Of a DNA stretch of 48,875 nucleotides, positions 20,809 through 48,875 are shown in pieces. The notes beneath the pieces are model-generated. The model saw nothing but the letters and a program-made list of their open reading frames with translations. It was not told the DNA's origin and did no database searches. Every line of letters starts with the position of its first letter. Positions within the stretch are counted from its first letter, which is position 1. Origin of the DNA: Stentor roeselii (taxonomy: Eukaryota; Ciliophora; Heterotrichea; Heterotrichida; Stentoridae); contig RSEH01000318.1 of NCBI GenBank assembly GCA_006503475.1, positions 1-48,875 on the forward strand, written 5' to 3'. Position numbers and translations under genes: made by a program.

Positions 20809-22184
20809 TAGATATACTGGGGGAGGATGGGGATTAGTTTAATTGGGGATAAGTTAATAATATTTTTAATAAATTTATACAGTTTGGTTTGGATAGTGTG
20901 ATTGAGTGATCCTTTTTTTCTTATTTTATTGATGATTCAACAACTCGATCAAATAACAGGCTATAAATGTATGAATCATGTAATTCTAAAATCTAATTTA
21001 TTTCTTAAGTATACACATTATGTATCCTTAGCCTTCAGACTGTGTAGAGGAAATGAATGAGATAATCTATTAAAAAATTTACTTAAAATATATCTCCAAT
21101 CAAATCATATCATTTTTCATTGAAATATAAGATATTAGAAATACTGTGAATCTAACTTATCTTTTCTTTTCTTCAACTTTAGCTTCAAAACTTTGAAATC
21201 GCATTCGGTCTTGCTTTGTTAAGCATCTTTTTCCATTCTATAAAAAAACTCTACACCAACTGAAGGTTTAGAAAAGATTGAAAAAAATTTAGACCTATTA
21301 AGCAGATGCTCAACAAAGCAAGACCATCAAGCAACTCCAAAATTTCATTGATCGTTTTTGCAAATGTTTTCGAAAAATAGTGAAAAATTATTCAATCGGA
21401 TATATTTCAAACAACAACGCGAGAAATAATTCGTTTGATAAAAGTTCAATAGAAGGTTAATAAGTTTCTAGATATAGCCTTTTCATTTTTCTTCATTAAG
21501 TTTCTTTGTTTCCAAATTAAAATCTATTTCATTACTTTTGAAATACTTGAAGTTTTGGGTAAAGCTTTTTTGTTAGTCAATTCAATTATTAGCCTGAATT
21601 ATTCTGACAAATATTTTGAAAAAATTTCGATTAATTAACCTTAGTTAGTCTATTCTAGAGTAAGTAATACCAATTTATATTCATAAACAAGAATCATGTA
21701 CTTGCTGTCAAATAATCAATTCTTCAAATGGCAATTAAACTTATACCTAATTAGAGTAAAGTTTGATTTTTAAGTATTCTGATCTTTAATATTGATTCTT
21801 GAATAAAAATTAGCACAGACTTATAAAATTCTTGTCAATTTTCATCCCTTTTACGAATCCCTTGTAAGTATTCAAAAATTGAAATTTTATGAGGTTACCC
21901 TACTGGATTAGTTGATTCATGCATACGGTATTGATTTTTTCACCGCATAAACTATAATTTGATTTCTTCATCATACTTTATTCAGCTTTCCTTGCAAGAT
22001 TCGAACCTTTGAACATAAACTTACAATCCGGTTGCCTAAAAATTCAGATTCACCTAGAAAGAGTATATTATAATAGTGCCTAAGTTTGAGGAATTGTTCA
22101 AAGTTGGATCTAGTTGTTGAAATATATACTTAAACTTTACTACATCTAAATTCAAGGTAGATTTTTATTAAATCATAGCCATAA
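20809..22184. other. AT-rich non-coding gap at the core/subtelomere border
   Basis: 1.4 kb without a credible ORF. It holds an inverted repeat (21,207-21,325) and a tRNA-like B-box (21,994-22,007 on the minus strand). GC content drops visibly compared with the region to the left. The last ~100 bp presumably contain the promoter of the AAA/nuclease gene. Confidence 0.6.
21207..21325. repeat. Inverted repeat, 21-bp arms, 77-bp loop
   Basis: Left arm 21,207-21,227 begins GGTCTTGCTTTGTT and right arm 21,305-21,325 ends AACAAAGCAAGACC. The arms pair at 20 of 21 positions. No matching target duplication or longer terminal inverted repeat was obvious by eye. It could be a hairpin RNA, a remnant of a small inverted-repeat element, or a fold-back replication or recombination site. 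Confidence 0.7.
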
Positions 22185-24308
22185 ATGTATTCAAAGGTAT
22201 TCAAGGCCTTGAGTCTGCGAAAAAATTCTCTTTTGACTAGAAATTTCTCAGATGAAATCAAAAAAACAAAAATCTTTCATAGTGGAGGGCATTTCGATGA
22301 ACTTCTATCTGGAAGATATGTGTTTGCTGACAAGTCTTTGTTTATCAGATCTATCTTGAATCGGAAAAATCTTCTAATCACTAGACCTCGAAGATGGGGA
22401 AAATCGTTGAATTTGGATATGGTCAGGTCATTCTTCAGTCCAAAAGTTTTTCAAGATGGGACTTATGCTGTTGATGAGCAAAAAAAAGATGCTTTCAAAA
22501 AACTTAAAATCGGAAAACTACCTTATCCAGAAAATCCTTTCATTTCAAACAGTAAAGAAAAAAAAATCATTGACCTTCAAGGTACAGTTCCTGTTTTTAA
22601 AGTTACATTCGATGATATTGCTAGTCCAATGTCTACAAAAGATATTGACCATCAGGTTGCAGATATGTTGATAGACTCTGTAATGGCACACTCTTACTTA
22701 CTTAAGTCATCGAAGGTTGATAGCCTAGTGTTGGGGCATCTGATGGATGCATATAATAATGGCTATAAAGGGTATGAAAGCCTTAGTTATATTGCTATAG
22801 CAGGAACAATAAAAATACTTATTAGTGCTATAAGCGCACATTTTAATTCAAAAGTCATTATACTTATTGATGAGTATGATAAATTCCTTGTATCATTGGC
22901 TGATCAAAATAATGAATTATATGATCATGGGTTAGGATTATATACAAAGCTACTTTCACCTCTTAAATCTAGTGAATCAATAATCCAATTAAGCATTTTA
23001 GTAGGGGTCTCAAAGCTAGGTAAAACTAGTGTCCTCTCAGGATTAAATGCTTTTACCCATGATTCAGTGCAAGCACCTCAGACTGAAGAGTTCTTTGGAT
23101 TAACTGAAAATGAAATCGAAACTTTAATAAGCGAAGCAAATGAATTAACAGGCTATAAGTTGGACGAAAAGGATATAAAAGAAACACTTAAAGAGCGTTA
23201 TAATGGATACAAAATTGGAAGCTCAATAATTTATAATCCTTATTCAATAATGAACTCTTTATATTCATTAGCCGATGATTACGCATATCCAGAATCAAAA
23301 AAGAAGGAAAAGGAAAATATATACCTCAACTACTGGGCGAATTCAGGTTCAACTAAAATTCTTGATGATTCATTCAAATATTTTAGTAATGAAAAAGAAA
23401 TTGAGTCATTGATTAAAGAAGGATTTGTAAATTTCCGTCCGGTTGATTCATACATAATGAAAATAGAAAATGATTTAAAATTAAATAATCCAGATTTAGA
23501 CTCGAAAGGGACAGACTTATTGATTAAGACTTTATGTGCAGATAAAAATGTTTTTTTAACTTTCATGCTCGATACAGGATATTTAACACATGTAAAAAAA
23601 AATGAATATAAGATTCCGAATAAGGAAGTATCAGAAACCTTCCTCAAACGCTTAATACCTATATGGTTAGGACTAAAATATCCTAATTTTCATGATAACC
23701 AACTTGATGACTCTCATATCGAAGACATCAAATTTTTTTGTGAATCGATACAGAAAAACTTTTTAGATAAAACAATTCCAAACGATGACCCTGAACATTT
23801 ATTCCAAGATTTGATTTATTTTAGCCTGTTGAATCAAAAATCTAAATTGGCAAATTATTTAGCTGAAAATGAATCAAGTTATAATACTAGAAAAAGAATG
23901 GATTTAATATTACTTCCTATTGAAAAAAGATCAGAGACATTATTTGTATTGGAGCTAAAAAAAGAACCAAATAAACCAACAAATACTGAAGTAACCAAAA
24001 ATAACGAAAATGATGCAATAAATGAAAAAAAAAACATCATAAAATTACGAGAAAGACTAGAAAATAGTGCAATCCACCAGATTATGGAAAGATACACAAA
24101 GTCAGTGGAAGCCATTTTAGAAAAAGAAAACTACATAAAAAAAATAACCCTTCGAGCAGTAGTATTCGTACTTGAAGAAGGTAAATGGATTATATCAGCA
24201 AAAGAAATCACATTTGATGTAACTAGCTTTACTCACGCAGTGAAGGCTTTCAATAGTGGTCTCATACCGAAACAGAATCTATTCGAAGTATTAGATCAGT
24301 TTAGATAG
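22185..24308 (+). CDS. AAA-ATPase-like plus PD-(D/E)XK nuclease fusion protein (bacterial-type family)
   Basis: 707 residues, ATG start, TAG stop. After a basic N-terminus (1-22) comes the AAA-ATPase_like domain (PF09820 type): YVFADKSLFI, the P-loop variant LLITRPRRWGKSLNLDM (Walker A Lys73), Walker B LIDEYDK (227-233), FFGLTENEIETLI, and RYNGYKIG...IYNPYSIMNSL (339-359), with YWANSGS beyond. GYLTHVK...IPNKEVSETFLKRL links to a C-terminal PD-(D/E)XK nuclease-like domain (PF08011/DUF1703 type) with Asp573 (KRMDLIL), Glu590-x-Lys592 (LELKK) and Q632IMERY. Such proteins are common in bacteria and scattered in protists; their function is unsettled. The N-terminus lacks acidic residues up to 22 and ends RNFS, like a mitochondrial presequence with an R-3 cleavage site. 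The gene is intact, intron-free and AT-rich. Confidence 0.93.
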   Translation: MYSKVFKALSLRKNSLLTRNFSDEIKKTKIFHSGGHFDELLSGRYVFADKSLFIRSILNRKNLLITRPRRWGKSLNLDMVRSFFSPKVFQDGTYAVDEQKKDAFKKLKIGKLPYPENPFISNSKEKKIIDLQGTVPVFKVTFDDIASPMSTKDIDHQVADMLIDSVMAHSYLLKSSKVDSLVLGHLMDAYNNGYKGYESLSYIAIAGTIKILISAISAHFNSKVIILIDEYDKFLVSLADQNNELYDHGLGLYTKLLSPLKSSESIIQLSILVGVSKLGKTSVLSGLNAFTHDSVQAPQTEEFFGLTENEIETLISEANELTGYKLDEKDIKETLKERYNGYKIGSSIIYNPYSIMNSLYSLADDYAYPESKKKEKENIYLNYWANSGSTKILDDSFKYFSNEKEIESLIKEGFVNFRPVDSYIMKIENDLKLNNPDLDSKGTDLLIKTLCADKNVFLTFMLDTGYLTHVKKNEYKIPNKEVSETFLKRLIPIWLGLKYPNFHDNQLDDSHIEDIKFFCESIQKNFLDKTIPNDDPEHLFQDLIYFSLLNQKSKLANYLAENESSYNTRKRMDLILLPIEKRSETLFVLELKKEPNKPTNTEVTKNNENDAINEKKNIIKLRERLENSAIHQIMERYTKSVEAILEKENYIKKITLRAVVFVLEEGKWIISAKEITFDVTSFTHAVKAFNSGLIPKQNLFEVLDQFR

Positions 24309-27007
24309 AAATAAATTTATTGATTCGGTTTATTATAGTGAACTTATTATAAAATTCTCTTTAAATTTGATATAAGTGATAAAGTATAATGCCCATAAAT
24401 GCCATCAAAGATCAGTTTAGTTTTGAAAATACTTCAATCATTTCTAATGCAGGAATACGATATTGGAAACAATCAATTTAATCTGCTTTCTTCTGAATGA
24501 CTTCAAAGAGTGAGCTCACCTTATTGTAAGCTTGATGATAATCTTTTCTTTTCTTCGCTCGGATGTCTTCAAGTTGAAAATTTACCAAACATTTCAATGA
24601 AAACCTTATTTTTTTTAAGTTCAATATTGAGGACTTGTGAAATGAACTCGGCTGTGAGGCACTTTCTTATGAAAGGGGTATGTAATTCTAGTAGAACCAT
24701 TTAAAAAAAGGTCTCACTTATATTTTTTTTATATATTTAGAGACCAGATGCCTCGAACATTGAAACTCTTTAGAGTTTGGGAATGAAATCGTGGTGGCTT
24801 GAGATTTTGATTCATTTTTATCCTGAAAAATTTAATTATGAACTAGCTAAAGCTAAGAATCTTTGTTTATAGAGAATTTAATGTGTTAACTATATACTTA
24901 ATATCCTAAATCAACATCAACTTAATTCTATATATCTATAAATAATTCATAATCTTATGCTTCAAACTACATCAATCATTTTAATATTTGTATATCTAAA
25001 ATCACTGTTTTATATTTTAATATTCATCTCTCCTAATTTAAGTATATAAGCTATATGTTCAAAATAGTTAAGGTAACCTTAGAAATTTAGAATACAGGAA
25101 ATTTATTTGATTAAAACTAAATATTTCTGTTAGTTTTATTTATAGTGAATACTATTGAGACCAGCATTATTTCCAATGTCATAGTCTTGTAATCGAGATC
25201 CTTGAAATTTATTCCATTTCCCGCAGCTTATGCTAAAATTCATTTGTATGATATATCTTCATATAAGTTTGTATTCAGCATTATAAAGTTTTTCCTAAAA
25301 ATTAAATGATTCATCTTGTAAATCAATTGATTGTTTGAAGTAATTCCAGTAATCATCCTAAACAATTTTCTTTATTCTATTCATCATAAACAGTACAACC
25401 CATAATTATATTCAATATTTCCTCTAACTCCACTTGCTTATCCTCAATCAAAACTCTTTTATACTCAAAAAATCTCAGAATAAAGTAAAAACTTTACCTC
25501 ATTCATAAGTAATCATTCTCAATATAGTCACTCGACAAACATCAACAATACAAAAACTCTTCAATTAAATCCAAAATCAATCAAACTTACTCTAAATCTA
25601 TCGAGGTTTAAATAATTATACAAAGCATTATTTATTGCAATAAAGATAAAGACAATCATCAATATCTTTCAGAACAAATAAAAACACTTCAAAGGAAAAA
25701 AAACATTTATAATTTTGACCCCATGGATTTTTGGTAAATCAGCCTTTTGTTTTGGCATATTGAACCATTTTTTTTTTTTACCTAGGGGAAAAATTTAAAT
25801 TTTTTCAAGTTGATTTTTTTCGATTGCAAGTAGTCATTAGTCGTCTTTGGGAGATTTAGACTGATTAACTCACAAAATTTAAGTTTTTAATTTAGAAATA
25901 CAAACGAGAAAAAGGAAAAAATTTCATTTTCCATATTTATCTAACAAAAAGTTAATATTTCAAGGCACATACAGCCTTATTAGATGAAGTTATGTGGACT
26001 TTTAAAAAGATAGCATTTATGTTTTGATCGTAATCTTGAATATTTCTGTTTTTTCTGGGAAATTTTGGATTTTCTTGTTGAATTAAGTGTCTTGAGCTTG
26101 ATTCTTCAATGAATTTCATCAGTTCTCTAATATCGTAGAGTTACTTCAGTCTAAATTATTCATTTTTTTATAATAATTATTCTGACACAACTCTCAAACT
26201 TTTGCAGATAGCAGAAAAGTTATAAGTAATCATTATCAACAAAGTAGCCCTTTTAAGTTGACTCAAAAGTTTACTTTCACTAAGTAAAAATTTTAGTTAT
26301 ATCTTCACAAGCCAAAAATTTCCAATTTTTAAAGAAACTATAAAATTACCAGAATTGGGAGTGAGATTGCAAATGCTCGGTACTTAGTACTACACTTCTA
26401 TCCACTTATGCCCTAGCGGGTCTATGTTTTTCATCAAAATATTTAAATTTACTGATTGCGGTCAGCAATCAATCTAGAAAGCTAGCCTTGTTTGATCGAA
26501 TGTAACCTCATAATAAAATACAATCGAGACTACTCTCAAATAAAACCTGCTTAAATTTCTCTGACTTTCAGAAGTTTTTCAGAAATTCCAAAATTTCCAA
26601 AAAATTTTGTCTTCGAAAAGTGAAAATTTGGGTCCTATCAAGAACGATTAGTTATAAGTTCTACATAAAAACTCAGTAAACGTTGAATATCAAAATTAAA
26701 CAATTTTAAATCGAAATTTATAGTCGAAGAGAAAACAGTCTAATTTTAGGTTGAATCGATCAAGTGTTTTTGAAACTTTCTTAAACAATTAAGTTTAGTT
26801 AACCTAGATTGATGTCTTTTTGCAAAACCTAGTTGCAACTACTTAAAGAGAATAAGCTATCTATGAAATAATTATTATAAAATTGTCTCCTACCTAAATT
26901 GTACTAAATCTCGACATATTTTGGATATTTTGAAACTTTTTGAAATCAAGGTGTAGATTTTCCGACCCCCACCAGTATTAATAGCCGACACTCTTTATTT
27001 TTTTACA
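24309..27007. other. AT-rich intergenic region, 2.7 kb
   Basis: Apart from a doubtful 67-codon spliced ORF on the minus strand (24,478-24,700), I see no coding sequence. A short imperfect hairpin (GGTCTC...GAGACC) lies at 24,710-24,745. Homopolymer runs occur at ~25,770. The last 60 bp before 27,008 are C-rich (CCGACCCCCACCAG near 26,961) and probably belong to the promoter of the giant gene. Confidence 0.55.
24478..24700 (-). CDS. Doubtful small spliced gene or gene fragment
   Basis: On the minus strand an ATG frame starting MVLLELHTPFIRKC runs 40-odd codons. A second frame continues it in similar style (AKKRKDYHQAYNKVSSLF) to TAA at 24,480-24,478. A GT...AG segment of 19 nt (GTAAATTTTCAACTTGAAG) would join them into 67 residues. 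Nineteen is longer than the 15-16 nt usual for this lineage, so a frameshifted relic is equally likely. Both parts look like genuine helical protein. No family recognised. Confidence 0.3.
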
Positions 27008-48640: not shown

Positions 48641-48720
48641 CAGAATTTTTTGGAATCATATGACAAACATAACCACAAAAAAATATTTAAAAAATCAGAT
48701 AGTTTAAGATTAAACCATCT
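47087..48720. other. Body of unit B and telomere-adjacent DNA
   Basis: 1.6 kb without an intact ORF. Most of it belongs to unit B. The final ~80 bp before the telomere are AT-rich and show nothing. Confidence 0.5.
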
Positions 48721-48875
48721 TTAGGGTGTTAGGGTGTTAGGGTGTTAGGGTGTTAGGGTGTTAGGGTGTTAGGGTGTTAGGGGGTTGGGGGGGGGGGGGG
48801 AGGGGGGTGTGGGGGAGGGGGGGAGAGGTCGGTGGGGGGCGTAGCAGTAAAGAAGGTAGGGGGGTAGGGTGTTGG
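48721..48875 (+). repeat. Telomere, (TGTTAGGG)n, with degraded tail
   Basis: Seven perfect TTAGGGTG units start at 48,721 with the G-rich strand running 5' to 3' toward the window end, as expected for a right chromosome end. From ~48,780 the sequence becomes an irregular G-rich tail that still ends in TAGGGTGTTGG. The tail looks like basecalling or assembly noise over further telomere units. The 8-base unit is that of Stentor and Blepharisma, not the TTGGGG of Tetrahymena. Confidence 0.93.

Follow-up and report, generated by a model that had tools for sequence, protein, structure and literature searches.

The genome of this ciliate carries about 45 loci for proteins of the DUF1703 type (i.e., an AAA-ATPase domain followed by a PD-(D/E)XK nuclease domain). 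Comparative evidence supports a mitochondrial-type presequence at their N-termini, and, on aligned sequences, the nuclease triad has been lost repeatedly in copies that stay open. One member lies in the window (i.e., the whole 48,875-nucleotide contig analyzed here, C251); the larger finding is the family rather than the window gene alone. We give roughly even odds to the reading in which these proteins are imported into mitochondria and evolve as a conflict or defence repertoire that keeps nuclease-dead copies. The features of the window gene are as follows.

22171..22184, plus strand: diverged, shortened start-site element, from the listing of 35 copies (window copy).
22185..24308, plus strand: coding sequence of the AAA-ATPase/PD-(D/E)XK protein (707 aa, TAG stop), from the open frame and a PF09820 match.
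22185..22247, plus strand: putative mitochondrial presequence, residues 1 to 21, with cleavage between RNF and S, from the R-2/R-3 rule and the same RNF-S in this ciliate's mtHsp70.
22383..22406, plus strand: Walker A motif RPRRWGKS, residues 67 to 74.
22611..22832, plus strand: fast-changing segment, residues 143 to 216, with the highest dN of the family (0.33 to 0.35) and a dN/dS of 0.98 to 1.15.
22863..22880, plus strand: Walker B motif LIDEYD, residues 227 to 232 (DEYD, 229 to 232).
23199..23210, plus strand: YNGY motif, residues 339 to 342.
23901..24080, plus strand: PD-(D/E)XK core D573, E590-x-K592, and Q632, in columns that align with 76 bacterial relatives.

The frame of the window gene runs for 707 codons without interruption. 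The codon preceding its ATG is TAA and the stop-to-stop frame starts exactly at this ATG; thus, splicing aside, the N-terminus is unambiguous. A Pfam profile search matched residues 36 to 283 to PF09820 (E = 1.6e-29; 103.6 bits; cut-off, 26.1). P68, G72, and K73 of Walker A are invariant in the alignment (all 28 ciliate rows and all 76 bacterial ones), and Y339, G341, and Y342 of the YNGY motif are kept in the bacterial relatives. A reading made earlier from the sequence alone (the sequence-only reading) held that all motifs of the two-domain family are intact, and each was found, including Y637 beside D573, E590-x-K592, and Q632. The catalytic residues of the window copy are therefore complete, and both ATPase and nuclease activities are predicted from them. 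The same reading called the gene a bacterial-type two-domain protein in a ciliate. The PF09820 match, the aligned nuclease columns, and eukaryotic neighbors such as a kinase with EF-hands and CDC50 bear this out, but PF08011 (PDDEXK_9) stayed below the Pfam cut-off in the window copy (13.3 versus 25.5 bits; E = 0.085). Half of the family members searched (14 of 28) matched PF08011 at an E value of up to 1 (best, 1.3e-11). By its alignment with DUF1703 proteins over most of its length, the window protein is one that would work as they do, although the PF08011 profile test fails. Sequence comparison with PDB gave a single weak match (E = 0.035), NCBIfam profiles gave no match, and no PADLOC defence family matched at an E value of up to 10.

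Nine of the ten window ORFs scanned have Pfam matches that are eukaryotic in kind (e.g., the kinase with EF-hands, CDC50, DENN, and VID27). The window ends in TGTTAGGG repeats, and this repeat, together with TAA, TAG, and TGA at ORF ends, fits what we take to be a standard-code heterotrich such as Stentor. The repeats begin at about position 48720, i.e., approximately 24.4 kb from the gene, and two ORFs of >1,000 aa lie between, which does not support the idea that the gene adjoins a telomere. After the regular repeats, positions ~48781 to 48875 hold irregular G-rich letters, which are probably low-quality assembly.

A search of 44.39 Mb (522 contigs) for PF09820, which served as the genome copy-number check proposed with the sequence-only reading, gave 46 matches on 26 contigs. 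Two matches on contig C144 are probably one decayed copy, which leaves about 45 loci. Of the 46 matches, 28 fall in frames of 620 aa or more that hold no stop, and the family also includes fragments and broken frames. With the window protein as the query, 61 stretches of the genome matched, and the best paralogue was 43% identical over residues 4 to 606. Of 35 family frames read, 33 start with Met. Within 79 kb of contig C144 (L016 to L022) there are six family copies (four having frames of >620 aa, in addition to two decayed ones). On contig C158, L035:5281 (minus strand) and L036:2138 (minus strand) share a frame break after approximately 52 codons, downstream of which their long frame is open (dN/dS, 0.40 [0.30-0.52]); an internal start, frameshifting, or shared decay could each explain this. 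By eye, L144:1-60, at the start of contig C252, resembles the tail of a further family copy cut at the contig end.

The family is old. A tree was built from 29 ciliate rows and 79 prokaryotic rows (a further prokaryotic locus, out of 80, was too short for the length limit). All ciliate rows grouped in one clade (support, 100) whose stem is long (0.86); within it, a clade of six rows (support, 98) contains the window copy, itself on a long branch. Compared with 28 relatives one by one, the window copy gave a synonymous divergence of at least 1.36 or saturation every time. A single deep clade with near-saturated synonymous sites indicates an old family and argues against a recent transfer. The notion of a lone or recently transferred gene thus fails, since about 45 loci exist and the copies in the tree make up a single deeply diverged clade. 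The proposed phylogeny check, which asked whether the gene nests among old ciliate copies, refuted recency only; an older bacterial origin of the family remains likely. The searches covered prokaryotic, viral, and plasmid collections, so a source or relatives in other eukaryotes may exist. Identity over the best segment was 23 to 30% for the 80 prokaryotic relatives kept among the matches listed. Support is weak (74) for the branch that connects the ciliate rows with their nearest prokaryotes, a place where long branches meet. There were also 43 matching plasmid records (best, ~26%), some from symbionts of protists, which do not settle the donor. Eight IMG/VR viral contigs (L133 to L140) encode distant relatives (24 to 29% identity).

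No signs of mobile elements were seen in the 45 homology blocks listed (at least 600 bases), which have no common ends. The blocks begin approximately 50 to 1,140 bases upstream of the copies, or at the 2.5-kb limit in one cluster, and end up to ~1.6 kb downstream (L023 is cut by a contig edge). The flank of the window gene (24330 to 26900) is mostly unique, with two short pieces that recur on C276, C383, and C121. Among these flanking bases, a 125-base stretch (24452 to 24576) recurs at 84 to 86% on C276 and C383, and its minus strand resembles a short coding remnant. Of the 46 family matches, 22 are no more than 10 kb from a contig end; the expectation was 16.5 for those same contigs (P = 0.03) and 10.8 for the whole genome (P = 0.0003), with clustered copies not being independent. 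In a subset of 35 matches, which left out eight matches and three decayed pieces on C144, the count was 14 against 10.7 expected (P = 0.11). The excess may reflect breaks of the assembly within similar copies. Telomere repeats were present at two of 12 contig ends read (i.e., the start of C70 and the end of the window); five of the ten ends without them were read for 60 bases only and may still carry such repeats. A telomere association of the family is possible.

Of the 76 bacterial rows, 75 have a complete D..ExK triad (the remaining row has a gap) versus 13 of 28 ciliate rows, counted on ciliate rows of at least 640 aa and with four of the 80 bacterial loci outside the length limits. Two of the 13 intact ciliate rows are copies whose 5' end is broken. 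Mapped onto the ciliate tree, triad state needs 10 changes (at least 9), and still 9 when D-to-E is scored as intact; the intact and dead labels are scattered as in shuffles (380 of 500 were as low). The P-loop lysine is kept in all 28 ciliate rows, and the Walker B glutamate position has E in 23, D in 2, and a loss in 3. These three losses (L032, L037, and L038) occur in full-length frames that also lack the triad D and K.

The proteins are under overall constraint, with a dN/dS of 0.29 to 0.79 in the 25 closest paralogue pairs listed. Pairs without the triad are still constrained (L037/L038, 0.64 [0.52-0.83]; L029/L032, 0.54 [0.44-0.67]; L016/L017, 0.29 [0.13-0.63]). Segment values pooled over 10 paralogue pairs were 0.25 to 0.35 around Walker A and B and highest in dN over residues 143 to 216. 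Values near or above 1 also occurred over residues 1 to 39, 401 to 459, and 663 to 689 (up to 1.21, on few sites); for no segment was a dN/dS above 1 demonstrated in the ten pooled pairs.

The sequence-only reading described a basic, acid-free N-terminus with an R-3 processing site, and this description held: residues 1 to 21 have five K/R, lack D/E, and finish with RNF, followed by S22 (the window copy reads MYSKVFKALSLRKNSLLTRNF, then SDE). Controls from the same genome, with cleavage points placed by eye, read MLSRISSTFSRSLIRSF, then GAK (Cpn60); MLRLASHLSRSVLSRNF, then SKA (Hsp70); and MVMRSLSRVFSNPVSRFF, then SEA (ATP synthase beta). The arginine is absent at this site in L051, which we read as ATP synthase alpha from its sequence. 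Citrate synthase was tried as a further mitochondrial control and rejected; four of its 8 matches were retrieved, and the three best lack a presequence of this type. Among the 33 family members that start with Met, 46 to 54 residues precede the conserved DK[ST] (48 before DKS in the window copy), versus usually ~22 to 26 from the likely start in bacterial relatives, some of whose starts are uncertain. This extra stretch is basic and in most members ends in R-x-F before S or T or in R-F before S. Seven of the 33 frames have an earlier in-frame Met, for which we took the later Met, as it lines up with where the other copies start.

We scored N-termini by a presequence rule (i.e., an R-2/R-3 site at the right distance, with at least three K/R and no D/E upstream of it). 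It was satisfied by 20 of 33 family N-termini versus three of 77 other ORFs (at least 150 aa, from the fetched loci rather than a random gene sample), two of which are Cpn60 and ATP synthase beta, and none of 75 usable bacterial relatives (of 80). Tolerating one acid raised the family count to 24 of 33. A narrower first rule (R-3 only) gave six of 33 family members and two of 77 other ORFs; because the rule was broadened after R-F before S had been seen in the main clade, the count of 20 is not blind. A net charge of at least +3 without acid in 18 residues was found in 28 of 33 family members, five of 47 others, and none of 75 bacterial relatives. Median amphipathic moments were 0.59 for the family, 0.34 for the background, and 0.47 for the bacterial relatives, and four mitochondrial controls ranged from 0.55 to 0.73. 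The proposal of a mitochondrial-like presequence thus stands on the family comparison and is less well served by the window copy itself: its moment (0.35 over 14 residues) is the weakest among seven N-termini compared, and the pooled dN/dS of ~1.0 over residues 1 to 39 suggests that constraint on the full N-terminal extension is not strong. Together, the comparisons support a mitochondrial presequence beyond the window gene, with import as its predicted consequence.

Directly 5' of the ATG, many family copies (35 copies listed; e.g., L009 to L036) share the element TCAG[AC]CATnTTTATA. In ~300 kb examined, 27 family starts carried its loose form, as did two broken family copies; one further occurrence lay elsewhere. 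Genome-wide, the strict form CAGMCATNTWTATAATG occurred 24 times, versus none for a reversed control. Twenty-three of the 24 are at family copies (17 at copies read, of which two are broken, and 6 by coordinates only), and the remaining one runs up to the edge of contig C25, with no readable gene there. Upstream identity between the two clades (excluding the window copy, L023, and L032) was 72% over -1 to -17, 27% over -18 to -40, and 38% over -41 to -59, and fourfold-site identity between them was 34%. A reading of the element as coding sequence was rejected on the TAA that stands directly before the ATG in the window copy, in L032, and in five other clade-2 copies. The element is private to the family and may act as a promoter, initiator, or 5' untranslated region, through which the copies might be jointly regulated.

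DUF1703 proteins (PF09820 AAA-ATPase_like plus PF08011 PDDEXK_9) are described from bacteria and archaea (Knizewski et al. 2007, PMC1913061). The ciliate proteins share their domain order, the RPRRxGKS Walker A, the DEYD Walker B, D..ExK, and the motif IV Q, but differ in the extra N-terminal presequence and in the often incomplete triad of the paralogues. Another report describes such proteins as scattered over prokaryotes, sometimes amplified, with a role that is not known (PMC6387759). The expansions in Cardinium and in a midge Rickettsia are likewise of a role stated there as unknown (PMC6387759). Cardinium cCpun has 25 diverged paralogues, 10 of 25 with predicted signal peptides (PMC6387759). 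The ciliate resembles it in having many diverged paralogues per genome; the signal peptides address the Cardinium proteins elsewhere, and Cardinium is a bacterial symbiont, unlike a ciliate nuclear genome with proteins of mitochondrial-type address. Also reported there is a DUF1703 homologue as part of the Tribolium castaneum Medea factor (PMC6387759), which is similarly of bacterial origin in a eukaryotic genome; unlike the ciliate family, Medea is an insect embryo-arrest element with no mitochondrial address described there, and we compared the two by description only. PF09820 is also listed among the domains of RdrA of RADAR, PARIS, and Old-tin in PMC10952713, and the window protein shares it with these systems by that listing while matching no PADLOC profile. 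We found no description of such a DUF1703/PF09820 family in ciliates, or of nucleic-acid conflict of this kind inside mitochondria, in the open-licence literature searched.

Several other accounts have to be weighed. The window gene could be an ordinary mitochondrial DNA-processing enzyme, with the other copies as dispensable duplicates, as its full intactness, its presequence, its long branch, and its near-saturated synonymous divergence from its relatives would allow. We consider such a housekeeping role in mtDNA maintenance improbable, given the ~45 loci with broken copies among them, the incomplete triad in 15 of 28 full-length rows, and the constraint on the nuclease-dead pairs L037/L038 and L029/L032. 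Dozens of diverging copies, half without the full triad, are not predicted by a single housekeeping task. Similarly doubtful is the suggestion that the extension is some other basic N-terminus (nuclear, or a binding tail). The low amphipathic moment of the window copy and the dN/dS of ~1 over residues 1 to 39 agree with it, but RNF-S is common to mtHsp70, few other ORFs pass the presequence rule, and no hydrophobic stretch suggestive of a signal peptide was seen.

We rate slightly lower still a decaying expansion, in which copies spread by ordinary segmental duplication are now eroding with no present function. It would account for the fragments and broken frames, the variable ends of the duplication blocks, and a dN/dS that is often 0.5 to 0.8 and near 1 in several segments. 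Against it, 28 of 46 matches remain in long stop-free frames despite near-saturated divergence between clades, and the presequence and start element are retained. A selfish toxin-antidote system, in which active copies threaten the mitochondria of unprotected cells or progeny and dead copies, keeping presequence and P-loop, serve as antidotes by entering the complexes of the active ones, seems to us about as unlikely as the housekeeping role. The reported Medea homologue (PMC6387759) and the open, constrained frames of the dead copies speak for it. However, L032, L037, and L038 lack the Walker B glutamate too, the shuffle-like scatter of labels also fits relaxed constraint, and the active/dead pairing and the complexes are hypothetical.

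We favor the conflict or defence repertoire over housekeeping on account of the high copy number, the broken copies, the fast segment between Walker A and B, and the repeated triad loss; turnover and a rapidly changing recognition segment are what a defence or selfish system would lead one to expect. Under the favored reading, the ciliate lineage would have acquired a DUF1703-type gene from bacteria, most likely once and long ago, followed by expansion to about 45 loci. The protein would be made in the cytosol and imported into the mitochondrial matrix via a cleavable presequence, with the processing peptidase presumably cutting after R-N-F (i.e., after F21). There, it would work as an ATP-dependent nuclease or nuclease-type sensor, in which the ATPase, on sensing or remodelling its nucleic-acid target, allows the nuclease to cut it. 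The target could be foreign DNA or intruders in the mitochondrion (defence), or the family could itself be a selfish system.

A bolder and rather improbable extension would make this a nuclear multigene system aimed at mitochondria, comprising dozens of co-regulated imported AAA-nucleases. Active copies would act as killers or sentinels of mtDNA and nuclease-dead copies as antidotes or dampers, and cells or mitochondria without the matching repertoire would be eliminated (e.g., after conjugation). A ciliate that apparently addresses dozens of DUF1703 proteins to its mitochondria, with a start-site element in common and the nuclease triad lost repeatedly, offers a handle on the role of this protein family and would place nucleic-acid conflict within mitochondria.
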